Virus record (IMG/VR): IMGVR_UViG_3300010370_000163
Coordinates: 1-29,846 of that record
DNA from: a virus
Reading direction: 5' to 3' (one strand)
Length of the DNA stretch: 29,846 nt
In this document: positions 9,691 to 24,831 of the stretch, in pieces
Numbering within the stretch: the stretch's first letter is position 1
Layout: each line of letters opens with the position of its first letter
Notes under the pieces: model-generated
Database searches by the model: none
The model's input: only the letters and a program-made list of their open reading frames with translations
What the model was told of the DNA's origin: nothing
Position numbers and translations under genes: made by a program

Positions 9691-11778
9691 CTACACCGAA
9701 ATGTAATTAGACAGAGGCCCGTTGTTCCGCGTGAACACTCGCAGATAGTCGGCAAACTCCTGGGCAACCTGATTCGGATTCACGATTGCCGAATCCACAG
9801 AGATGTTCACATTCATCTCGATAGGGTCCAACCCGAACGCATAAGGATTTGCAGGTGCAGCAGGAGCAGGAACTGACGGCAACCCCAACAATCCTTCAAC
9901 AGGATTCGCAGCAGCAATCTTCGGGAACAAACGACGCACCTCATCCAATGCCGACAACGCCGACGTGTACTCCGTCAACGCCTCAGCCTGATCCGCGATT
10001 GCCTCAGCCAAATCCTCGGCAGCTTCCTTACTGCGAATCTGTGCATCCGTCACCGCATCAACGAACGGCACCAACTCCTCGTCACCGTCGCGCAAACCTT
10101 CGGTGGCGATACGCAGATTGCGACGCGCCTCCTCCAAATCAAGAGTCGAGGAATACGCACTGTCTTGCGAATCTGCGACATTGAACTGGGCTTCAGCCAA
10201 GTCAATTTCCGCTTTGCGAATGTCATCCGCCGTCGAGCCAGAATCGGCGCGAACTTCAGCCAAACGTTTCTCCGCGTCACGAACACCGATGACCGCTTCC
10301 TCAACACCGAACTTCGCACGCGCAACCCCACGTTCCGCAGCACCAAGACGACGTTGAGCGGCCTCAATCTTCGCCGGGTCACCACCCATCTGCGCCTGAC
10401 GTAACTCTTCCTGCGCCTTCGCCAAAGCGATGTTCGCATCCTCCAACGAACCAGCAGCCTTCTCCGAACCTTTCTGACTGCGACCATACGCATCAGACGC
10501 CGACTTCGCATCCTTGGCGACTTTCGTGTATTCCTTCAACCGATCCTCAATCGACTTGATTTTCTTCTCCGCACGAGACACCTTCCCGCCAGCCGAAGTC
10601 GTTGCATCTCCCAAATCGTCCATCGACTGACTGGTGCCTTTGGCGGTTCGAGTCGTCTGAGCCAAACGACGCTCGACCACATCCATCGGACCTTCAGCGA
10701 TGATGGCAAGTTTCTTTGAGGCATAGTCAATTTCCGCACTGAAATCGGAGAACGCTTTGTTCATCCCATCTTGTGCATTTTTGACCATTCCTTGAATGGA
10801 GACAATCGGTTTTCCGAATGCAAGGAAAGCACGAACCAGGTCAATGGCCGCAAACAACGGCGTCAATGCGTTGATGACGCCGTTCAGGAAACCGAAGATT
10901 GCGTTGCCGATGCTTTGAATTTGCAAGAGGACTGTTTTGCCTGCCTCACCGAACGCAGCTACGAAATACGCCAATCCCGCTCGGACACCCGAAGATTGAA
11001 ATTGAGCGATTGCAAGTTGCACAGCAGGGATTAGGCGATCAGTGAGGAAACCAACTATTTGCGTAAGCGTCGGCAACAGCATCATTCCGAACTGTTCACG
11101 CAACTCATCCACCGCGATACCGAACGCACGGAAACGACCGGCCGCAGAGTTCGCTTTCACCGAAGCCTGACCCTCGAAAGTGTCACCCAACTGACTGACA
11201 ATCTTGTTGAAGTCTTTTGCTTTGACCGCGTTCTTGTCGAGCGGTATCCCAAGTCGAGTCAAAGCAGTCACCGATCCCTGACTCGCTTTAGCCAAGGCGA
11301 TAGTCACCGACTCAAGATCACGCCCGGTACCAGCAGACACATCCAAGGCGATTTGCAGCAACCGTTGAGACTTCGCAAAATCACCCGTTGCACGCACCAA
11401 CGTGCCGAATGCCGGACGCAACTGGTCATCGGCAACGGCCGCCGATTTGCTGAACTGGTCAATCAGCCGTTCCGTCTCAAGTCGCAACGCCTCCGATTCA
11501 CCGAACGTCGTCTTCAACGTCTGAGCCAACAATTCCTGCGACTCTGCATCCTCCATCGCCGCCTTCACCGACAACCCAGCGGCAGCCGTAATCGCCCCGA
11601 ACGCTGCAGTGCCGGCGATACTGATGGTCTTGAACGAGGGAATCAAGGCGGACAAAGCCCCACCCATACCGGACTTGCCGAACAAACCGCCAGCGGTCTT
11701 GCTGACCTTGTTGAACTCCTTGATGAGTTGCTGGGCGTCGCCCACCATCTTCACTGAGAACGTGCGTTCAACGGCCAT
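9691..11778 (-). CDS. tail tape measure protein
   Basis: The 695-residue protein has the expected layout. An N-terminal conserved opening (FSVKMVGDAQQLIKEFNKV) leads to hydrophobic helices (about residues 50..76 and 220..320). The typical central segment LGDTFEGQASVKANSAAGRF is near residue 195. A long charged coiled-coil region (about 385..600) rich in Glu/Lys/Ala follows. The C-terminal tail carries a Pro/Ala linker. At about 0.15 nm per residue the tail would be near 100 nm. This rule of thumb holds for related phages and has not been tested here. The gene starts 18 bases after the primase-like gene. Confidence 0.9.
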   Translation of the reverse strand: MAVERTFSVKMVGDAQQLIKEFNKVSKTAGGLFGKSGMGGALSALIPSFKTISIAGTAAFGAITAAAGLSVKAAMEDAESQELLAQTLKTTFGESEALRLETERLIDQFSKSAAVADDQLRPAFGTLVRATGDFAKSQRLLQIALDVSAGTGRDLESVTIALAKASQGSVTALTRLGIPLDKNAVKAKDFNKIVSQLGDTFEGQASVKANSAAGRFRAFGIAVDELREQFGMMLLPTLTQIVGFLTDRLIPAVQLAIAQFQSSGVRAGLAYFVAAFGEAGKTVLLQIQSIGNAIFGFLNGVINALTPLFAAIDLVRAFLAFGKPIVSIQGMVKNAQDGMNKAFSDFSAEIDYASKKLAIIAEGPMDVVERRLAQTTRTAKGTSQSMDDLGDATTSAGGKVSRAEKKIKSIEDRLKEYTKVAKDAKSASDAYGRSQKGSEKAAGSLEDANIALAKAQEELRQAQMGGDPAKIEAAQRRLGAAERGVARAKFGVEEAVIGVRDAEKRLAEVRADSGSTADDIRKAEIDLAEAQFNVADSQDSAYSSTLDLEEARRNLRIATEGLRDGDEELVPFVDAVTDAQIRSKEAAEDLAEAIADQAEALTEYTSALSALDEVRRLFPKIAAANPVEGLLGLPSVPAPAAPANPYAFGLDPIEMNVNISVDSAIVNPNQVAQEFADYLRVFTRNNGPLSNYISV

Positions 11779-11796: not shown

Positions 11797-12516
11797 CTAA
11801 ACAGCAACCGTCTTTCTGAGATCACGCAACTCCTCCAACAGCTTCACAGCGATTTGCTGTTGCGTCAACCCGACAAAACGCGACAAGTCCTGCGGCTCAC
11901 GCCACCACGCCTCATCCTGCCAATACTGCTTCGATGTGTTGCGAACCTCACGAGGATTGCGGAAGCGTTGACGGTTCGTGACTGGACGTGGCACGAACAA
12001 TTCGCCAAGTTGCGGGTCGATGAACTGGCCGTAGCCGATCTTGATGTCGGGCGTCGTAAGCGGCTTGTGTTGAGGACGGTAGAAGATGCGGGCAGGGTCC
12101 TTGGTTTGCGGGTCGCCGACGACGTTGATTCGTTCATGCAGGTTCGTCCACACTTCCGACCAGCGTTCACCTGGCACCGGATAGGCGAGCGGCAACACGA
12201 GATGCCAGTGCTGGTCTTGCTCGGTGTGTGACCAGGTCGTGTACGCCAGGTACTCAAGCCCGTCGAGCTTGGCGTGGTCAAATGCTTCGCCGTCCATGTC
12301 AACCACGAGGCAGGTGACGTATTGGACGTTGCGGTTCCCTCTAGTTGTGCCAGGGTAATAGATGACCGGGGACCAAAGTTCGCGTTGCGTCTTGTCCGAG
12401 TTCGCTTCACTGAGTTGAAGCAGAGCCGAAAGACCGTTCCACGAGATGGCGAAGTTCTTGGGTTGGTTGCATTTGACGTCGTGGAACTTCACGGCGTGAA
12501 TCTGTTGGCAGGGCAT
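11797..12516 (-). CDS. primase/replication-initiator-like protein inserted in the tail operon
   Basis: The 239-residue protein shows the signature of archaeo-eukaryotic-type primase or Rep-like domains. CLVVDMDG (Asp 73, Asp 75) would be the metal-binding h-D-h-D motif. The stretch YTTWSHTEQDQHWHLVLPL (from 92) carries the His and the conserved basic/aromatic pattern. GDPQTKDPARIFYRP (from 114) matches the D-P-A-R-x-x-Y-x-P motif of these proteins. No helicase domain is attached. The start ATG follows AAGGAG by six bases. The gene is placed between tail chaperone/gp10 and tape measure genes, far from other replication genes. I infer the family from motif order, so confidence in the enzyme activity is moderate. 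Confidence 0.6.
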   Translation of the reverse strand: MPCQQIHAVKFHDVKCNQPKNFAISWNGLSALLQLSEANSDKTQRELWSPVIYYPGTTRGNRNVQYVTCLVVDMDGEAFDHAKLDGLEYLAYTTWSHTEQDQHWHLVLPLAYPVPGERWSEVWTNLHERINVVGDPQTKDPARIFYRPQHKPLTTPDIKIGYGQFIDPQLGELFVPRPVTNRQRFRNPREVRNTSKQYWQDEAWWREPQDLSRFVGLTQQQIAVKLLEELRDLRKTVAV

Positions 12517-12546: not shown

Positions 12547-13086
12547 TCAGACGGCTCCGATGCCAAGCTTCTTCAAGACCCGCTCAATAGCGTTGAAATA
12601 CTCGGTGATGATGAAGTCCCTGTTCTCCCGAACCGTAGGCCAGAAGAAGTACCCGGAACGGAATCTGTGCCGCAAGAACTGTTGGGTCGTCTTGCGTCGA
12701 CGGCCACCGAACTCGGCACCGAAGAACACGTCACCCTTAGTCACCTTGATTTTCCGTTTGCGGTTCGAGCGACTCCTAGACACATACCCACGTTTGTGAT
12801 CCAGTTTGATTACCGGCACACGGTCATGCCTGGCACGCAACCCGTCAACGACCGCTTGCGCCTGACTACGACTACCGGGTTTCCTGCCGTGTGGAGGCTG
12901 GGCAGCAGCAGCCACCTTGGCTTTCTCCACGATACGGTCGGCGACATCCTTGGCCGCGTTCCTCATCTCAAGATTGAATTGCGGTGAAGCTTGCGACGCT
13001 TCACGCAGAAACTTCATCAACCCATCCGCGACGAACGCGACGTCGCCACCACGACCTACTGCTTTGCCTGACTCAGCCATTGCCAC
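12547..13086 (-). CDS. HK97 gp10-like head-tail/tail component
   Basis: The 179-residue basic protein matches the gp10-like family. A helical N-terminal half (MRNAAKDVADRIVEKAKV, residues 41..58) is followed by a basic loop (SRSRSNRKRKIKV). The characteristic end block follows: FFGAEFGG, then FLRHRFRSGYFFWPTVREN. The family sits at the head-tail interface or completes the tail tube. GTG 13086 and ATG 13080 are both possible starts. The gene overlaps the end of the frameshift product of the chaperone by 8 to 14 bases. In most siphoviruses this gene lies before the tail tube gene, so its place here is shuffled. Confidence 0.7.
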   Translation of the reverse strand: MAMAESGKAVGRGGDVAFVADGLMKFLREASQASPQFNLEMRNAAKDVADRIVEKAKVAAAAQPPHGRKPGSRSQAQAVVDGLRARHDRVPVIKLDHKRGYVSRSRSNRKRKIKVTKGDVFFGAEFGGRRRKTTQQFLRHRFRSGYFFWPTVRENRDFIITEYFNAIERVLKKLGIGAV

Positions 13087-13497
13087 GATTGTACGGTGTC
13101 GGGTTCTGCTTGATGGACCGCCAACGCAGATACGCAGCCATCGTGTACAGCATTCGTGGAGATTCAGTCAGCAACACTGATGGCGCGATACCTGTCTCGC
13201 AGGACAGGTAGGCGATCAGCCAGTGGGCTGACTGCTCTCCAAAGGGACGAGCTTCTCATCCTCCGAGTCGATGTTGATGCCGTCAACCGTTTCGCACCAA
13301 GCATCAAAGTCCAATGTCGTTATTTTGCGTCGCTTCTCTGAATGCCATGCGAACCAAGCAAGGTCACGGGTCTTCAAGTTTGATTCGATGTTGGCCATCG
13401 AGATGTTGTGAACTTCCTCAAACTTGACGAAGTCAGCGAACTCGCAGACGACTTTGCGTTTGCCGTCTTTCGTGACGACTTGCAACGCGATTTTCAT
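13073..13497 (-). CDS. tail assembly chaperone, long form by -1 frameshift
   Basis: Ribosomes reading the short chaperone can slip one base back on CCCTTTG (13246..13240). They then read on in the -1 frame to the stop at 13075..13073. The product is 141 residues: 86 from the first frame and 55 after the slip. The extension begins GEQSAHWLIAY and contains LLTESPRMLYTMAAYLRWR, the conserved pattern of the second part of siphovirus tail chaperones (S-P-R-M-x-x-x-M). The short and long forms guide tape measure folding and tail tube assembly. No start or ribosome site is needed for the second frame. The frame is open, ends exactly by the next gene, and carries the family motif. Confidence 0.85.
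13216..13246 (-). promoter_or_regulatory. programmed -1 ribosomal frameshift signal
   Basis: The heptamer CCCTTTG (13246..13240) is read as C-CCT-TTG in the chaperone frame, which is the X-XXY-YYZ form. Eight bases later a 6-pair hairpin TCAGCC-CACT-GGCTGA (13231..13216) starts. Its second arm contains the zero-frame stop. The heptamer, spacer and stem geometry match known stimulatory signals. A further 8-pair stem (TACCTGTC/GACAGGTA) follows about 29 bases after the heptamer. Confidence 0.85.
13216..13497 (-). CDS. tail assembly chaperone, short form
   Basis: This is the 93-residue zero-frame product that starts at an ATG with GGAGG five to six bases upstream. The central helical block (FADFVKFEEVHNISM, then RDLAWFAWHSEK) is the usual signature of the chaperone in actinophages and lambda-like tails. 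It lies just after the tail tube gene. Most ribosomes stop at the TGA at 13218..13216 and make this form. A minority shifts to the long form. It should be more abundant than the long form, as in lambda gpG and gpGT. Confidence 0.85.
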   Translation of the reverse strand: MKIALQVVTKDGKRKVVCEFADFVKFEEVHNISMANIESNLKTRDLAWFAWHSEKRRKITTLDFDAWCETVDGINIDSEDEKLVPLESSQPTG

Positions 13498-13528: not shown

Positions 13529-13933
13529 TTAGGCGAGTGCCTTCGTGATTGCACCAGAGATCGGGAAGGTGACATCGGCAGTGTTCAATTCACCGACCGC
13601 ACCGTTCACCGGGGTCCACTCGGTCACGAGCACCGAGAACGTGTACGACGGGTTCGTCGTACCGGCTGCGGTGCCGTTCGGCTTCACGACGCAGGTGACT
13701 GCGGTGGAGCCGACGAGCGGGAAGAAGATTCCGTCGATGGCGTTGTAATCGTTGTGAATCGAGAACGTCACCGAGTTGTCAATCAAACCCGACACGCGAG
13801 TGATTGCGGTGCTGCCGAACGCCGTCGTGGCGACCTCAGCCGCACTCGTGGACAGGGTCACTGCCGCGACGTTTGCACTGATGTCGGTGCCTGCAAATGT
13901 GATGTTGGCGTTGGTGAGGACCAGCTTTGCCAT
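13529..13933 (-). CDS. major tail (tube) protein
   Basis: The 134-residue beta-rich protein reads as a single tail-tube domain. It opens MAKLVLTNANITFAGTDIS, continues with VAAVTLSTSAAEVATTAFG and a central strand SFSIHNDYN-like section (VTFSIHNDY), and ends with a beta hairpin (FSVLVTEWTPVNG) and DVTFPISGAIT. Size, position before the chaperone and a good ribosome site (AGGAGAA) all support the call. It has no C-terminal Ig-like extension, which some tail tube proteins carry. The protein polymerises in hexameric rings around the tape measure. Confidence 0.82.
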   Translation of the reverse strand: MAKLVLTNANITFAGTDISANVAAVTLSTSAAEVATTAFGSTAITRVSGLIDNSVTFSIHNDYNAIDGIFFPLVGSTAVTCVVKPNGTAAGTTNPSYTFSVLVTEWTPVNGAVGELNTADVTFPISGAITKALA

Positions 13934-14014: not shown

Positions 14015-14425
14015 CTAGGCGTAAACAGTGACCTTGAAATCCACAGTCAAATACAGGGTGTCGTTTGCGTCAATGTTCGTGAAGTTCCCAGCCGAAACAA
14101 CAATCAAATCATCACATACCCCACCCAACGTCCGATCCGATTCGATGGCTGCACGCAACGACTTCGCACCAGTCCAAGCCATGTACTGATCCAACGAATC
14201 CTGGGCGACACGCTCCGACGTGCGTTGCACCACCAACGTGACCGTGAAATCCATGACCACACCACCACTACCCATACCGGTCTGATGGAACCTGATCTCA
14301 TCCAACGTCGGCCAAGCGAACGGAGGGTTCACCTGCTCAGGCTGATAGTCGAACGCACGCAACCCCGACACCGTTTGGATGGCTGCCTTCAGCCCATCCT
14401 TGACTTCACGAATCGTGGCCGGCAT
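14015..14425 (-). CDS. tail terminator / tail completion-like protein
   Basis: The 136-residue protein follows the connector gene by a TGATG overlap and precedes the tail tube gene. The fold pattern is a helix (REVKDGLKAAIQTV) then strands (MDFTVTLVVQRTSERVAQD), a helix (SLDQYMAWTG) and a C-terminal strand (TLYLTVDFKVTVYA). That matches gpU/gp17-like tail terminators, which cap the tube and join it to the head. The block PTLDEIRFHQTGMGSGG is typical in actinophages. The family is inferred from order and fold pattern. Confidence 0.7.
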   Translation of the reverse strand: MPATIREVKDGLKAAIQTVSGLRAFDYQPEQVNPPFAWPTLDEIRFHQTGMGSGGVVMDFTVTLVVQRTSERVAQDSLDQYMAWTGAKSLRAAIESDRTLGGVCDDLIVVSAGNFTNIDANDTLYLTVDFKVTVYA

Positions 14426-15066: not shown

Positions 15067-15732
15067 CTACTTGGCGACAAGCCACTGAGTGCCGACGAGT
15101 TCCACCGTCGCACCAACAGCCGCCGCGAACTTCCCCAAATCGTCACGCACAGCAGGCCAGTCATAATCATCACCCATCAACAGGCCGCCATCAGCCAACA
15201 AATCCCAAGCCGTTGACAACTCCAAAAACGTCTCGTTCACCTCATGCGCCGAATCCACATACACGACCTGCGGCCTTGCCGCCAACACCCGCGCAATCAA
15301 CCGCATCCCGACGATACCCGTCGCAGGAATCGGAGTGATGACATCCTCAAACCCTGCCTCTTTCACATTCGCCAAGAACCGTTGCCGAATCGTCGGCACC
15401 CCATTCACCAACCCAAGAAACCGCCACTTCCCTTCACGCACCAAACCCTGCTCCCAAGCCCACATGTTCACATCCCCAGTGAACGGGTCAATACACACGA
15501 TGTCCAAATCATGGCCGAGATCACGAGCGACACGAGCAACCCGCAACGCCGACCCACCCAACATCGACCCCACCTCCAACCAAAACGTCGGACGGCGATT
15601 CGTCAACACCCTATGCACCAGCGACTCAGTCAGATTCGTATGCGGATACCCGGCATCCGGCTGCGTCGCATCCGCATACACATCCTGACCACCGAACAAC
15701 AACGACCGCAGCTCGCCGCCAATCAACCCCAT
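15067..15732 (-). CDS. class I SAM-dependent methyltransferase (Methyltransf_24-like)
   Basis: The 221-residue protein has the SAM pocket FWLEVGSMLGGSALRVA (residues 50..66), then the acidic residue after strand 2 (IVCIDPFTGD). Later VVYVDSAHEVNETFLEL and LLADGGLLMGDDY follow the fourth and fifth strands. The D-x-A-H and DGG...GDDY pair is typical of Methyltransf_24-type enzymes, many of which methylate sugars. It overlaps the glycosyltransferase-like gene by ten bases, so methylation of a transferred sugar is the best guess. The substrate could also be a protein or a small molecule. Confidence 0.8.
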   Translation of the reverse strand: MGLIGGELRSLLFGGQDVYADATQPDAGYPHTNLTESLVHRVLTNRRPTFWLEVGSMLGGSALRVARVARDLGHDLDIVCIDPFTGDVNMWAWEQGLVREGKWRFLGLVNGVPTIRQRFLANVKEAGFEDVITPIPATGIVGMRLIARVLAARPQVVYVDSAHEVNETFLELSTAWDLLADGGLLMGDDYDWPAVRDDLGKFAAAVGATVELVGTQWLVAK

Positions 15733-16244: not shown

Positions 16245-16882
16245 CCCAACCTCAAACGCCTCGACAAATCCCAATCCAACGGCTGATCCTGCACCATCCG
16301 CTCCTCGAACAGACGACGATTCGCATCAAACGTCGCAGCGTTCCGCTCCTGAAACTTCGCAGACGACTGCAACGTCGAAGAGTTCCGATGATAGATAGCC
16401 GCAGCCGACCGCACAATCTCACACCCTTTCCGATGAGCCCGCACCTCATAGTCGTTGTCCTCGAAGTACGCCGGATGGAAACCCTCATGGAACAAGCCGA
16501 CCTGTTTCACCACCTCAGACCCCAACCAGAAACACGACCACGGCGGCTTCCCACCCAACACCAAATTTGACGGCGAACAATCCACAAAGAAATCCTCAAC
16601 ACCATGACCACCGAACACGACATCGTGATTCACAATCAACCACCCAGCCGAATACGGCGTCGCCTTCACCCCAAGATTCCAGGACGCAGCCACACCAAGA
16701 TTCGACGGCATACGCAAATGCCACACCCGCTCAGCATGAGCAGCCCGCGGATACCAGTCACACGGCCCGTTGTCAACCACCACCAAATCACCGATACGAC
16801 CCGTAAAAGAATTCAACATCTGATCGACCCGATGATGCTCAGTGAGCACCGGAACAATCAGGCTTGGGACGAGCGGCACCAC
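16235..16882 (-). CDS. family 2 (GT-A) glycosyltransferase
   Basis: I start at GTG 16882, which has AAGGAG eight bases upstream, rather than ATG 16912, which has none. The core matches family 2. PSLIVPVLTEH is the first strand, VVVDNGP holds the nucleotide-binding Asp, and NLGVAASWNLGVKA is typical of rhamnosyl-type GT2. VNHDVVFGG takes the D-x-D place and FEDNDYEVRAHRKG holds the base residue. This is a compact enzyme of about 215 residues. The donor is probably a nucleotide sugar from the host. The acceptor is unknown and may be a virion protein, given the location between head and tail genes. Confidence 0.85.
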   Translation of the reverse strand: MVPLVPSLIVPVLTEHHRVDQMLNSFTGRIGDLVVVDNGPCDWYPRAAHAERVWHLRMPSNLGVAASWNLGVKATPYSAGWLIVNHDVVFGGHGVEDFFVDCSPSNLVLGGKPPWSCFWLGSEVVKQVGLFHEGFHPAYFEDNDYEVRAHRKGCEIVRSAAAIYHRNSSTLQSSAKFQERNAATFDANRRLFEERMVQDQPLDWDLSRRLRLGWD

Positions 16883-18159
16883 GCCGCCAACTCCTTCATC
16901 GCCGGCTTCCAATGCGACTCATACACCACATCAGCGTCATACTGCTTGGCGAACTCCACCGCCTTCTGCGAACGGCCACGACCACGCGCATACGCCTGCT
17001 CCAACCCGTCAATAATGCTCGGCACAGACGGCGCAAAGAACCACGAACTTTGCGCCGCATCCCAATACGGCTGACCCTCAACCAGCCAACCATCCCCAAC
17101 CAACTCCGGCTGCGCCGTAAAGTTCGAGACAATCACCGGCGTACCGCACGCCTGAGCCTCCACCACCGGGATACCGAAACCCTCACCCATCGACGACGCC
17201 AACAACACATCAGCTGCCGTGTACAACGCAGCCATCGCATGATGCGGCAACCCCATCCGATACAGGTACGGATCAGCCCACTTGATGCGTTCCTTCGCAA
17301 TACCGACCATGTCCGCCAACCTGTTCAAGTCGATGCCACCCATCGACCCAGACGCCTCAGAATGCATGTACAACACCGCATCAGGATGCTTCGACGCAAA
17401 AATGCTGAACGCCATCAAGTTCTCTGCGAACGCTTTACGAGGCGGATGGGCACCCTTGTTCGCGGCAGTCATCATCACCACGAACTCATCCTCACCAAAC
17501 CCCATGATTTCGCGGCCCGTCATCGTCTTGTTCTGATTGTCACGAATCGACGGCGTCGGCTTGAACACCGACTCAATCCCATGCGGAACATACAAACTGT
17601 GAATGCCGAGCTTCTCCAACTCCTGGAGACCGAACTTGCTCATCGCCACCGGCATCACGTTCGGCTTACTGCACCACGCCGCAACCTCCGGCGGACACGG
17701 CTTGTGGTCAATAGGCACCCATGATGCGATGTTGGGAACCGTCGCAAGATTCGGACTCTTCAACACCCACACATCAAATAACGTCATCAACAATTTGGGA
17801 AGCGTCGTGGCCTGCGTCCACTCCATCCAGTGTGCGACGATGATGTCGTCGCTGTACGCACTCAATCCTCGCGGATAGATTTTGATTCCGTTCCACGTCG
17901 ACGTTGAGGCTTCGAGCCCGTAGTTCGCGTGGATTGCGATTTCGTGCCCTTCTTTGATGAGCCTTTGGACGGCTTGCTGCGTTTGTTGACCGTAGCCCGT
18001 TCCCGCCCACGGGGCGTTCGAGTACCAGAGGGCTCGGACTGCGTCCGGGGATCGACGACTGACTCCTCTGGCAAGTGCCCCACGCCCCGCTGCAAGAGCA
18101 GGATCGCTGTCGGCTCCGGCAACTCCACCGGCACGCCCTTGATGATGAGTTTCATTCAC
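16858..18159 (-). CDS. GT-B (family 4-like) glycosyltransferase with uncertain 5' end
   Basis: The domain begins at RALWYSNAPWAGTGYGQ (about residue 42). VPHGI (191..195) and the C-terminal signature EGFGIPVVEAQACG (326..339, two Glu eight apart) follow, all typical of family 4 retaining glycosyltransferases. The only start in frame before the domain is GTG 18159. The first 40 codons it would use have poor third-position G/C and an odd composition, while the overlapping frame from ATG 18155 looks coding there. The true N-terminus may therefore come from that other frame by a -1 shift at CCCC (18050..18047), or an indel may exist. See the finding. The C-terminus overlaps the next glycosyltransferase by 25 bases. 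Confidence 0.85.
   Translation of the reverse strand: MNETHHQGRAGGVAGADSDPALAAGRGALARGVSRRSPDAVRALWYSNAPWAGTGYGQQTQQAVQRLIKEGHEIAIHANYGLEASTSTWNGIKIYPRGLSAYSDDIIVAHWMEWTQATTLPKLLMTLFDVWVLKSPNLATVPNIASWVPIDHKPCPPEVAAWCSKPNVMPVAMSKFGLQELEKLGIHSLYVPHGIESVFKPTPSIRDNQNKTMTGREIMGFGEDEFVVMMTAANKGAHPPRKAFAENLMAFSIFASKHPDAVLYMHSEASGSMGGIDLNRLADMVGIAKERIKWADPYLYRMGLPHHAMAALYTAADVLLASSMGEGFGIPVVEAQACGTPVIVSNFTAQPELVGDGWLVEGQPYWDAAQSSWFFAPSVPSIIDGLEQAYARGRGRSQKAVEFAKQYDADVVYESHWKPAMKELAAWCRSSQA
17862..18155 (-). CDS. small capsid-adjacent protein overlapping the glycosyltransferase
   Basis: The ATG has AGGAGG nine bases upstream. The first 30 residues (MKLIIKGVPVELPEPTA, then ILLLQRGVG) match the start of small proteins often encoded right after the major capsid gene in actinophages: a K-I-x-G-x-x-V-E-V-P strand, then A-x-L-L-x-R-G. 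The rest is a basic, Ser/Lys/Arg-rich tail that overlaps the glycosyltransferase domain in another frame. Third-position G/C is 30 of 35 in codons 2..36, against 12 of 36 for the competing frame. The N-terminal part is therefore very likely translated. Whether it ends at 17862 or fuses to the glycosyltransferase is open. Confidence 0.55.
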   Translation of the reverse strand: MKLIIKGVPVELPEPTAILLLQRGVGHLPEESVVDPRTQSEPSGTRTPRGRERATVNKRSKPSKGSSKKGTKSQSTRTTGSKPQRRRGTESKSIRED

Positions 18160-20322: not shown

Positions 20323-21519
20323 TTACTTGTCCACGAACAATCTGGACAAACGCATCAAAGTTTTCAGATAACCGGCACGGCCCTCTTCCTCTTTGACACG
20401 TTCCGCCTGACGTTGAAACCAGTTCATCGCCGGACCTGGATCGAGCGGGTTGATTCCCCACAGATAGAACGCCACCGCACCAGCACCAGGGAACTCGTCG
20501 TTGTTGGCATCACTGTTCTTCGGGGCTTCGAGGTCTACCAGGTGTCGTGCTCCCCAAGCGTTTGCACGAACGACCTTATCCTCACTGATTCTTCCCGCAG
20601 CCATGTCACGGGCTTCACGCACAGTTCGCGCCACCAAACCATCACCAGCGAGGCCCTGCCCGTAGTAGTCGAGACCTTTGCGGGCGGCCGCACGAATGTA
20701 CGACGGGACATCGAAGGAGAGCTGCCGGTTCGGGTTCGGCTCCGGATAGTAGTTGAGGTCAGACCCGACAATGTTTCCGCTCTGAACGGTTTGCCCTGGG
20801 TTGTCATTCGGCAGTCCCTCCACTGGTTCCCAAGCGTCGCAATAGTAGGCATTGGAAACTTTCGCATCCCAACGCTCACACCAAAAGTTCTTGAAATGCA
20901 CACAGTTCCCACAGTTGCGGTTCGCCGGCACATCCGCCGTAGCCGCAGGACGATACGCGGCAGGCAACGCACGCAACTCCGGCATCTCACCTTCAGAAAT
21001 GTCGGCAGGGTCCAACACCGGGATACCGAGGTCACGGAACACCGAACGATTGTCCGGGTCATTGTCAATAGCCAACCGCACCGGGCCCTCATCCAAAATG
21101 TCTTGCGCCTTCTCAGCCTTGTACTCAGGCGTCGACTGCTCGGCATCATCCTTGAACTCGATGTCGTCGTACCTAACCCCAGCCGCATCTAACGCAACCT
21201 TCGTCGCATCCTCCTCATCTTCCATACGACCCGTCACAATGTAAATGTAGAAATCCTCAAACAATTTATTGACGTAATCAACGACACGCTGAATCGGCTC
21301 TGAGCCATTCAACAACGTCCCATCAACATCAACGATCACCGTCTCCTCGGCATCCTCAGACCGTTCACCACCCGGTTCCATGTCCTCAGCAATCGACACC
21401 GCAACCATCTGGTCAATTGCCGCCTGCTTCGTCGCATGACAACCGATAACTTCACCGTCTTCCTTGATGGTTGCCCAACCGCTGCAATCAGGTGACGAAT
21501 CAGTGATGAAGTACGGCAT
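20323..21519 (-). CDS. mosaic phage protein: CxGW module, HAD phosphatase domain, Cys4 module
   Basis: The 398 residues read as four modules. Residues 1..50 hold DCSGWATIKEDGEVIGCHAT, a small motif often attached to actinophage capsid proteases. Residues 58..170 are a complete HAD domain: DVDGTLL (nucleophile Asp), IVTGR (Ser/Thr motif), YKAEKA (Lys) and AIDNDPDNR (acidic motif). Next is a four-Cys block CGNCVHF...FWC...YYCDAWEP, likely a metal site. The C-terminal module (VREARDMAAGRISEDKV, then GAGAVAFYLWGINPLDPG) is also common in phage head-region proteins. It lies between the fibre/glycosyltransferase genes and the protease. A virion-associated or assembly role is inferred. The HAD substrate is unknown. 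Confidence 0.8.
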   Translation of the reverse strand: MPYFITDSSPDCSGWATIKEDGEVIGCHATKQAAIDQMVAVSIAEDMEPGGERSEDAEETVIVDVDGTLLNGSEPIQRVVDYVNKLFEDFYIYIVTGRMEDEEDATKVALDAAGVRYDDIEFKDDAEQSTPEYKAEKAQDILDEGPVRLAIDNDPDNRSVFRDLGIPVLDPADISEGEMPELRALPAAYRPAATADVPANRNCGNCVHFKNFWCERWDAKVSNAYYCDAWEPVEGLPNDNPGQTVQSGNIVGSDLNYYPEPNPNRQLSFDVPSYIRAAARKGLDYYGQGLAGDGLVARTVREARDMAAGRISEDKVVRANAWGARHLVDLEAPKNSDANNDEFPGAGAVAFYLWGINPLDPGPAMNWFQRQAERVKEEEGRAGYLKTLMRLSRLFVDK

Positions 21520-22322: not shown

Positions 22323-22474
22323 GTTCCTCCAACAAGTTTCCAACCATACGACACACCAGGATTCTCATCGCAAGGCAACAACTGTGCAATCCCAGCAGGC
22401 GAATACGGAGACACACCATCCCAAATGACGACGTTGACGACGACGCCTTCAGCGTTGAGTTCTAGCCATCTCAT
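22283..22474 (-). CDS. small protein downstream of the collagen-like fibre
   Basis: The start ATG overlaps the TGA of the fibre gene (ATGA). The 63-residue protein opens [20 protein letters not shown] and contains [16 protein letters not shown], ending with Pro/Ser/Glu. The pattern (x-x-x-V-x-N-V-I-x-W-D-G, then G-x-x-W) resembles short proteins seen after fibre genes in several phages, some acting as fibre chaperones or caps. That role is inferred from context. It overlaps the glycosyltransferase gene by 40 bases. Confidence 0.65.
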
Positions 22475-24831
22475 CCGAATACCCAAATCTTGATTTGTGC
22501 GTCGCCGCCTGCTCCACCGTTGCCGCCGTTGTTGTTGTTGTTACCGCCTCCACCGCCTCCACCGCCGCCGCCCGGCGAGCCGCCTGCGCCGCCTGTCCCG
22601 CCTGCGCCAGCGTTATTAGAGCCGCCGCCCGATCCGCCTTCTGATGTGCCGCCAGCCGTTCCGTTGCCACCGCCTGCGGTTCCGCCAGCTGGCCCGCCAC
22701 CAGAAGCAGGAATCCATGTTTCACCAGCGGTCAACGACGGATTGGTTTCATACGAGCCACCAGCACCCCCGGCAGTATTTGTGGTTGTGATGCCACCGCC
22801 TCCACCGCCACCGCCGCCTCCACGAAACGACTTCACTCCTGCTGCGCCTGCTGTACTGCCGCTACCAACGCCGCCAGCACTAAACATAGTTTGTGTTGTT
22901 GTTGTCTGCATTCCCTGAACTGCGACGCCGCTACCTCCCGCTACGTTGCCACTTTGCCCACCGCCTGCGCCGCGCCTGCCGCCAGCGAAATAGTAAGTTC
23001 CAAAACGGCTGACCCCGCCCACGTTTCCCGCTGTACCATTGCCGGATGAACCAGTCCGACCACCGCCCGCCGTCCCGCCCGCGCCGATAGTCACAGTCAC
23101 TGATGCACCTGCACCGCCGACTTCTGAGGCCGCTAAAACTATTCGATCCCACGGGCCGCCGCCCCCACCGCCGCCACCACCGATTTGCGTAGTTGCCGAT
23201 TGACGCCCGCCGCCACCGCCACCGCCACCTGCACCGATGCAGTCAACAACGATGACACGAGCACCTGTCGGAACGGTGTAGGTCGTGCTCGATGCAAACG
23301 TTTGTGCATCAAGTTCACTCATACCGCCCGATGCAGCAGCCCATTTCATGCCCTCGTTCGTCGTGCTGTCGACGGTGAGGACGTGTCCGTTCGTGCCGCC
23401 GACGGGGAGACGTACCGTCGTCGTCGAAGTGCGGGTAAGGAGGTCGCCTTTGGTCGTCAACTCCGATCCACCAGCAGCACCCTGCGGACCCTGCGAACCT
23501 TGTGGACCTTGTGAACCTGTCGCACCTTGAGCACCAGTAGCACCTTGCGGCCCGGTAGCTCCTTGCGGTCCAGTATCACCTTGCGGACCTTGCGGACCGG
23601 TTGATCCCTGCGGCCCGGTATCACCTTGCGGCCCGGTTGCTCCAGTAGCACCCTGCGAACCTGTTGCACCTTGCGGACCGGCAGCACCCTGAGCACCCTG
23701 AGCTCCTTGCGGACCTGTATCACCTTGTGGACCTGGAGCTCCTTGCGGACCTGTATCACCTTGTGGACCTTGAGCACCAGTAGCACCAGCAGCACCTTGC
23801 GGACCTGTCGCACCTTGAGGACCTGTCGCACCTTGAGGACCTTGCGAACCTGTCGCACCCTGAGCACCTTGCGGACCTTGCGGACCGACAAGGTTCATCG
23901 CAAAAATGACGTTCTGATTGTTCGAGAAGTTCGTCGTGCCTGTGCCACCGCTTGATACCAACGTGACAGGGAACTCCCAATAGTTTGTTTGCGCGACTGG
24001 TGCAGAACTGATTTCCCATTTCTGGAAATTGTCCGACAAGTTTTTATCTTGAATTATGAATGTGTCGCCGACACCGAGCAACGCAAGGAAGATGTCGATG
24101 TCGAAGTTGTTTGCGTCAATGTGCGACACGTTGATTTGTGTTGCGGATGTTTGCGTCGCATTATTCCAAATCAGATGCGTCGAACCTGGATCACCGCTCG
24201 TAATCGTCGTCTTCGCTTTGTAGTCATAGAACGACGTCGACTGTCCTGCTGCACCTTGCGGACCCTGTGAACCCTGCGGTCCTTGCGAACCTGTCGCACC
24301 TTGCGAACCTTGTGGACCTGTCGCACCTTGAGGACCTTGAGCACCGGTCGCACCCTGCGGACCGACATCACCTTGAGCACCAGTCGCACCGTGAGGACCC
24401 TGAACTCCTTGCGGACCTGTCGCACCTTGCGGACCGACAGCACCCTGAGCACCTTGCGGACCCTGAGCACCAGTCGAACCTTGAGGACCAGTAGCACCGA
24501 TCGCGCCTTGCGGACCTTGAGCACCAGTCGCACCCTGAGCACCCTGTGGACCTGTAGCACCCTGCGAACCTGTTGCACCCTGAGGACCCTGAGCACCAGT
24601 AGCACCCTGAGCACCAGTAGCACCCTGAGCACCCTGCGGACCTGTAGCACCCTGCGAACCCGTCGCACCCTGAGCACCCTGGGCTCCTTGTGGGCCGATA
24701 GAACCAGCCGACTGCGTAATCGTCACCGACTGCGTCGACTCTTGAATCGTCACCTCAGTATCGGACTCGACGACCGTGACCCGCACCGGAGTCTCGACGA
24801 CCTCAACCGTGATCGGTTTATCTTGCGCCAT
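22471..24831 (-). CDS. collagen-like, glycine-rich tail fibre
   Basis: The 786-residue protein has five parts. A beta N-terminus (residues 1..42, [17 protein letters not shown]) comes first, probably the attachment end. Then a Gly-x-x collagen-like block (about 46..196), a globular beta insert of about 120 residues ([13 protein letters not shown], then [13 protein letters not shown]), and a second collagen-like block (about 316..454). A fibre module ([20 protein letters not shown]) follows. The last part is a glycine-rich C-terminal domain (about 515..786) with stretches such as GAGGGGGGGG, similar to the glycine-rich tips of other phage fibres. Collagen-like repeats of GPQGATGAQ type form trimers. 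A receptor-contact role is likely. The gene sits unusually between portal and protease genes. Confidence 0.85.
23468..23885 (-). repeat. second collagen-like repeat tract
   Basis: A run of imperfect 9-base units encoding Gly-Pro-Gln, Gly-Ala-Thr, Gly-Ala-Gln and similar triplets, interrupted by near-synonymous changes. The units are alike enough to recombine, so copy number may vary among isolates. It follows the globular insert of the fibre gene in reading order. Confidence 0.8.
24243..24696 (-). repeat. first collagen-like repeat tract
   Basis: This is an analogous run of Gly-x-x codons in the first half of the fibre, of about 150 residues. Triplets change between GPQ, GAQ, GAT and GSQ, with rare forms such as GPH and GVQ. 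It is close in sequence to the second tract, so homologous exchange between the two could delete the globular insert. Confidence 0.8.

Follow-up and report, generated by a model that had tools for sequence, protein, structure and literature searches.

Our analysis supports a model in which a tail assembly chaperone gene of a siphovirus very probably undergoes programmed -1 ribosomal frameshifting. The gene lies on the minus strand of the window, by which we mean the whole 29,846-base stretch of virus DNA that was analysed. In this model, most ribosomes would translate the zero frame to its stop codon at 13218-13216 and release a chaperone of 93 amino acids, while a minority would slip back by one base on the heptamer C CCT TTG, with CCU in the P site and UUG in the A site, the tRNAs re-pairing to CCC and UUU. 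Slipped ribosomes would go on to make a fusion of 141 amino acids that carries the C-terminal domain encoded by the -1 frame. Downstream RNA structure would probably stimulate the shift, and in this clade the most likely element is a long stem starting 5 nt past the heptamer, which would alternate or compete with a hairpin nearer to it. By analogy with gpG and gpGT of phage lambda (PMC5009743), the tape measure might be bound or coated by the abundant short form, and the rare fusion might recruit the major tail protein or tail-tube subunits.

Two overlapping frames between the major tail protein and tape measure genes

The structural genes of this virus record lie on the minus strand. They include the genes for terminase (28205-26721), portal (26539-25187), capsid (19474-18284), head-tail connector (15054-14425) and tail terminator (14015..14425; phrog_17840, E 2e-27). 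The zero-frame, G-like chaperone ORF (13216..13497, minus strand; ATG at 13497, stop TGA at 13218-13216; 93 amino acids) is placed between the major tail protein gene directly upstream (13529..13933, minus strand; phrog_4574, E 8.5e-22) and the tape measure gene downstream (9691..11778, minus strand; phrog_4197, E 2.4e-6), as a siphovirus G/GT pair requires. The first-pass annotation had named a slippery C CCT TTG in the right frame, and this sequence is found at 13246-13240 (13240..13246, minus strand), in the -1 register X_XXY_YYZ. The T-like -1 frame extension (13073..13240, minus strand) has the 55 codons claimed for it, from GGA at 13240 to a stop TGA at 13075-13073. Its translation reads GEQSAHWLIAYL...ESPRMLYTMAAYLRWR...NRGNG, and GEQSAHWLIAYLSCETGIAPSVLLTESPRMLYTMAAYLRWRSIKQNPTPYNRGNG is the product of the -1 frame, which is open from just past a stop at 13258 to the TGA at 13075-13073. 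Conceptual translation across the heptamer gives a fusion product of 141 amino acids. The junction VPL-GEQSAHW proposed earlier holds if slippage follows the decoding of TTG, but earlier slippage would give VPF-GEQSAHW. The next gene (12547..13086, minus strand), with its start at ATG 13080 or GTG 13086, overlaps the end of the -1 frame.

Elsewhere in the window, the first 57 amino acids of a 398-residue ORF (20323-21519) match a head maturation protease profile, and the next 115 match a polynucleotide kinase/HAD phosphatase profile. A collagen-repeat, tail-fibre-like protein of 786 amino acids (22471-24831) is encoded between the portal and the protease/capsid genes, away from the tail genes. 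A methyltransferase and a glycosyltransferase (15067-15732 and 16858-18159) lie between the capsid and connector genes; in Pontimonas phage phiPsal1, too, glycosyltransferases and a methyltransferase directly precede the neck gene. The stretch from the chaperone to the tape measure gene includes a gene (11797-12516) for a 239-amino-acid protein similar to phage DNA primases/helicases; this primase-like gene, fixed inside a tail module, is present in 67 of the 71 relatives with enough flanking sequence.

A less usual heptamer conserved beyond the demands of the protein

C CCT TTG is the sole in-register X_XXY_YYZ sequence within the overlap of the two frames, and CCCTTTG occurs once on the minus strand of the window. 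Sequences of this type stand in register at 14 of 7240 codon positions in the minus-strand ORFs of the window, and at this rate 0.023 would be expected by chance in the 12 positions of the overlap.

Searches of viral contigs, phage records and genomes, the viral contigs being queried with the fusion and also with the -1 domains of several relatives, yielded 189 distinct homologous cores. CCCTTTG is found at the identical register in 132 of these and, offset by one alignment codon, in one more (L149), giving 133/189 in total. Another canonical heptamer, C CCA AAA or A AAA AAA, is in register in 44 cores; the sister clade with these two heptamers comprises L002, L230-L271, L285-L296, L314 and L344. 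Two cores score only AAACCCT, one of them Arthrobacter phage SerialPhiller, and both also have an in-register C_CCT. No heptamer was found in the ten others, six Gordonia/Arthrobacter isolate phages and four metagenome contigs. All heptamer-less or AAACCCT cases except MooKitty have an in-register C_CCT at or near the homologous place. As to heptamer loss or -1 frame stops in close relatives, which the first-pass annotation had named as counter-evidence, the 132 homologues keep both CCCTTTG and an open -1 frame, and most homologues without CCCTTTG carry a different canonical heptamer.

In these 132 homologues, the Pro-CCT and Leu-TTG codons of the heptamer are invariant (132/132). At other conserved positions of the -1 frame, by contrast, Pro is encoded by four codons and Leu by six. 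The codon 5' of CCT varies in its first two bases (GTC, GGC, GCC, CTC, ATC) and keeps its final C, a base that the heptamer demands and the protein does not. Judged by these synonymous codons and by the canonical alternatives in the sister clade, conservation of the heptamer exceeds protein constraint. In 139 of 140 loci, the zero-frame stop lies at a distance of 28 nt from the heptamer.

We agree with the earlier remark that CCCTTTG is cited less often than sites of the GGGAAAG type, yet it has already been measured as frameshift-prone in E. coli: in a heptamer survey, C_CC.U_UU.G gave >0.10% frameshifting even without stimulators, and C_CCU was among the few tetramers that were frameshift-prone with a stimulator (PMC4066793). 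The titles and abstracts searched, which left most subscription journals uncovered, held no earlier report of CCCTTTG/CCCUUUG as a natural phage chaperone slip site, and we regard this as weak evidence of absence. Thus CCCUUUG as a frameshift-prone sequence was already known, and what is new would be another case of lambda G/GT-type chaperone frameshifting, with CCCUUUG.

Two mutually exclusive RNA structures after the heptamer

The minimum-energy prediction for the 91 nt that follow the heptamer is a single long, irregular stem. The whole predicted rod (13158..13240, minus strand; MFE -45.5 kcal/mol, z -5.8) has a basal part (13240-13236/13162-13158), an inner part (13225-13217/13182-13175) and an apical hairpin (13214-13203/13196-13184). 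Against a codon null, in which the amino acids and the codon usage of the family are preserved, the 90 nt that follow the heptamer reach z -4.0 in the window and a mean z of -1.9 over 59 clusters, compared with a mean z of -0.06 for 230 control stretches of equal length from the same gene and the next one. We conclude from these comparisons that RNA structure appears to be selected in most of the family.

The excess stability after the heptamer is thus clear by the codon null, and two structures compete for it. One is the near hairpin TCAGCC(CACT)GGCTGA (13216..13231, minus strand), in which arms of 6 bp (13231-13226 and 13221-13216) follow the heptamer after the 8-nt spacer that had been proposed, and whose 3' arm contains the zero-frame stop. 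The other is a long-range stem of 8 bp, CAGTCAGC/GCTGACTG (13165..13234, minus strand; arms 13234-13227 and 13172-13165), which lies 5 nt past the heptamer. Both use one 5' arm and are therefore mutually exclusive.

That the near hairpin is the only stimulator and the long stem a by-product of the coding sequence is a reading that we consider possible but less likely than not. Across the full set of 59 clusters, in which clades lacking the long stem are included, 93% of cells in the near hairpin are paired, with one double change only, and the codons that build it are strongly preferred (Ser-TCA in 124/132 and Ala-GCC in 126/131 homologues). Moreover, the long stem is missing from a third clade (for example, L029-L074) that retains the heptamer and the near hairpin, and is therefore not universally needed. 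Yet the bases of the near hairpin encode two frames and are also constrained by the zero-frame Gln-Pro, and over 42 nt the folding energy falls only a little below that of the codon null (mean z -0.96). The best long-range stem from the same 5' arm, on the other hand, beats the codon null in 29 of the 59 clusters (p <= 0.05), although such p-values overstate the evidence because the relatives share ancestry and their loci are not independent. Stems of at least 7 bp occupy just two registers, in 21 and 10 clusters. The second register is that of a sister clade and of the distant EBPR siphovirus 6 (L003, 10 bp), and L193, which also uses it, has a double synonymous change from A-U to C-G. Covariation is weak for both structures; for the long stem in the window's own clade, no covariation was found on both sides and the shuffle control there gave a result no better than chance, so that the claim for this stem rests on the codon null and the two registers.

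On balance, we lean towards the long stem as the better stimulator candidate in this phage, while the near hairpin may act alone in other clades. The 6-pair hairpin put forward in the first-pass annotation, with the stop in its second arm, exists and is widely conserved, but it is not the most stable fold, and in the group of this phage synonymous-codon tests favour the longer stem with the same 5' arm. A two-state RNA, in which the 5' arm would have two alternative partners, the near arm that covers the zero-frame stop and a far arm ~55-60 nt downstream, strikes us as a doubtful but conceivable elaboration; its far pairing is found in two registers, in different clades, and if it exists, the balance between near and far pairing or the spacing of ribosomes could set the frameshift rate.

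Upstream of the heptamer, the Shine-Dalgarno-like GGAGGATGAG (13255..13264, minus strand), whose GGAGG ends 13 nt before the heptamer, is a possible 5' stimulator. The motif at first appeared 25-fold enriched compared with the rest of the gene, but the codon null removed most of this enrichment; it beats that null in only 4 of 59 clusters, acidic residues explaining it in most relatives, and we do not claim it as a stimulator. An Rfam search of the window gave no match.

The -1 frame evolves as a protein, probably joined to the zero frame

For all pairs of the 59 cluster representatives, the sequence downstream of the zero-frame stop has a pN/pS of 0.25 when read in the -1 frame, compared with 1.2 and 1.7 in the other two. 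Positional entropy at the first, second and third codon positions of the -1 frame is 0.62, 0.37 and 1.24. Purifying selection acts on this frame, which evolves as a protein.

Some annotators have treated the -1 part as an ORF in its own right (Schiebs gp14, MooKitty gp11, phiPsal1_017), and internal starts are present in it at GTG 13177 and ATG 13153, as would suit a second protein made by independent initiation or re-initiation, with the heptamer incidental. We consider such an origin very unlikely, because in 56 of 59 clusters the conserved block SAHWLIAYL comes before the first ATG or GTG, the heptamer codons show no synonymous change and conservation of the -1 frame reaches right to the heptamer. 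The first 20 codons after the heptamer are likewise free of ATG and GTG in 56/59 clusters, and GTG 13177 is the first of either in the window's -1 frame. The earlier statement that this frame has no start of its own is accordingly correct for its first 21 codons but not further in, where GTG 13177, TTG 13174, ATG 13153 and ATG 13141 occur. Every annotated record examined misses the -1 domain, cuts it or leaves it unjoined, and we correct these gene calls by joining the domain to the zero-frame chaperone.

Frameshifting by tandem tRNA slippage on the heptamer thus remains the preferred explanation of how the -1 domain is reached, and the direction of the shift is most probably -1. Since -1 and +2 shifts reach the identical frame, and since the AAAAAAA of relatives such as L002 could permit transcriptional slippage, the frame might instead be changed by slippage of the polymerase or by +1/+2 shifting; CCCTTTG, however, contains no run of more than three bases, and what is conserved corresponds exactly to the X_XXY_YYZ register, so that we consider these routes very unlikely as well. 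Finally, an indel that split one chaperone gene, through assembly error or decay, would look like two overlapping frames in a single metagenome contig, but the relatives refute this reading and leave it a practically negligible chance: the same break is found at the same base in 132 distinct sequences and in 59 clusters from many samples, both frames are conserved, and the isolate genome phiPsal1 has its own heptamer.

The zero-frame protein as a probable tail assembly chaperone

Tail assembly chaperone families are highly divergent. The assignment of the zero-frame protein to this function, made in the first-pass annotation, is supported by gene order, by the frameshift and by a profile link to annotated actinophage chaperones. 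Phage relatives keep the order of major tail protein, chaperone and, further downstream, tape measure, and the downstream gene order is kept in 66 of the 71 relatives with enough flanking sequence. PHROG 6889, described as 'unknown function', is matched by 18 of 46 relatives and by all seven Gordonia/Arthrobacter proteins at the same genome place, some of which are annotated 'tail assembly chaperone'; the window's own zero-frame protein did not match it at E 0.01. Alignment of the relatives' profile with the actinophage chaperone set by hhalign gave 96.5% (E 9e-10).

Pfam and NCBIfam searches returned no model that names this protein, and Telomerase_RBD and similar weak Pfam matches fell below the cut-off and were discarded. 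Fold prediction for the zero-frame protein (pLDDT 80) gave matches to uncharacterised phage proteins, and among solved structures there was no match by sequence or by predicted fold. With neither a named family nor a solved structure matched, the putative chaperone function rests on synteny, the frameshift and the relatives' annotation. Taking these profile matches together, PHROG 6889 is very likely a tail assembly chaperone family, which would provide a likely function for a family that has no name.

Comparison with known systems

We suggest that CCCUUUG is the natural, fixed slip site of a large, mostly uncultured and probably actinobacterial phage group. The search of genome contigs found one relative only, in a MAG contig labelled Gammaproteobacteria, and host assignment therefore stays indirect. 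The E. coli survey that measured this heptamer (PMC4066793) differs from the phage locus in its artificial reporter context, and CCCUUUG was not among the most efficient heptamers there.

The Gordonia phages Schiebs, McGonagall and Coeur and the Arthrobacter phages MooKitty and SerialPhiller share a homologous G domain (hhalign 96.5%) and -1 domain at the same genome place, and most of them also share the alignment position of the zero-frame stop. They differ in having no X_XXY_YYZ heptamer at the CCCTTTG position, and 6 of 7 have C_CCT at the homologous site. In L142, L143, L144, L145, L147 and L148 (Gordonia, Arthrobacter), the -1 frame at this C_CCT tetramer reads GPYG/KPYP. The joined product is annotated in none of the Gordonia/Arthrobacter records examined. 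As C_CCU is frameshift-prone with a stimulator in E. coli, we infer that these phages may still shift. Pontimonas phage phiPsal1 and its marine and freshwater relatives have a homologous -1 domain (58% identity) and a similar gene order, whereas their heptamer is C CCA AAA or A AAA AAA, which the zero-frame stop often follows directly. These homologous cassettes, with CCCUUUG, CCCAAAA, AAAAAAA or a bare C_CCU, are well suited to the study of how slip sites are replaced in evolution.

A close known counterpart is the G/GT tail assembly chaperone frameshift of phage lambda, which has been reviewed together with its homologues in long-tailed phages (PMC5009743). As in lambda, one gene, situated after the major tail protein and before the tape measure, would yield a short chaperone and a -1 fusion, with the -1 slip taking place late in the first frame. 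The two systems differ in that lambda uses GGGAAAG and the phage described here CCCTTTG, that their protein sequences are unrelated and that two extra genes lie between the chaperone and the tape measure here.
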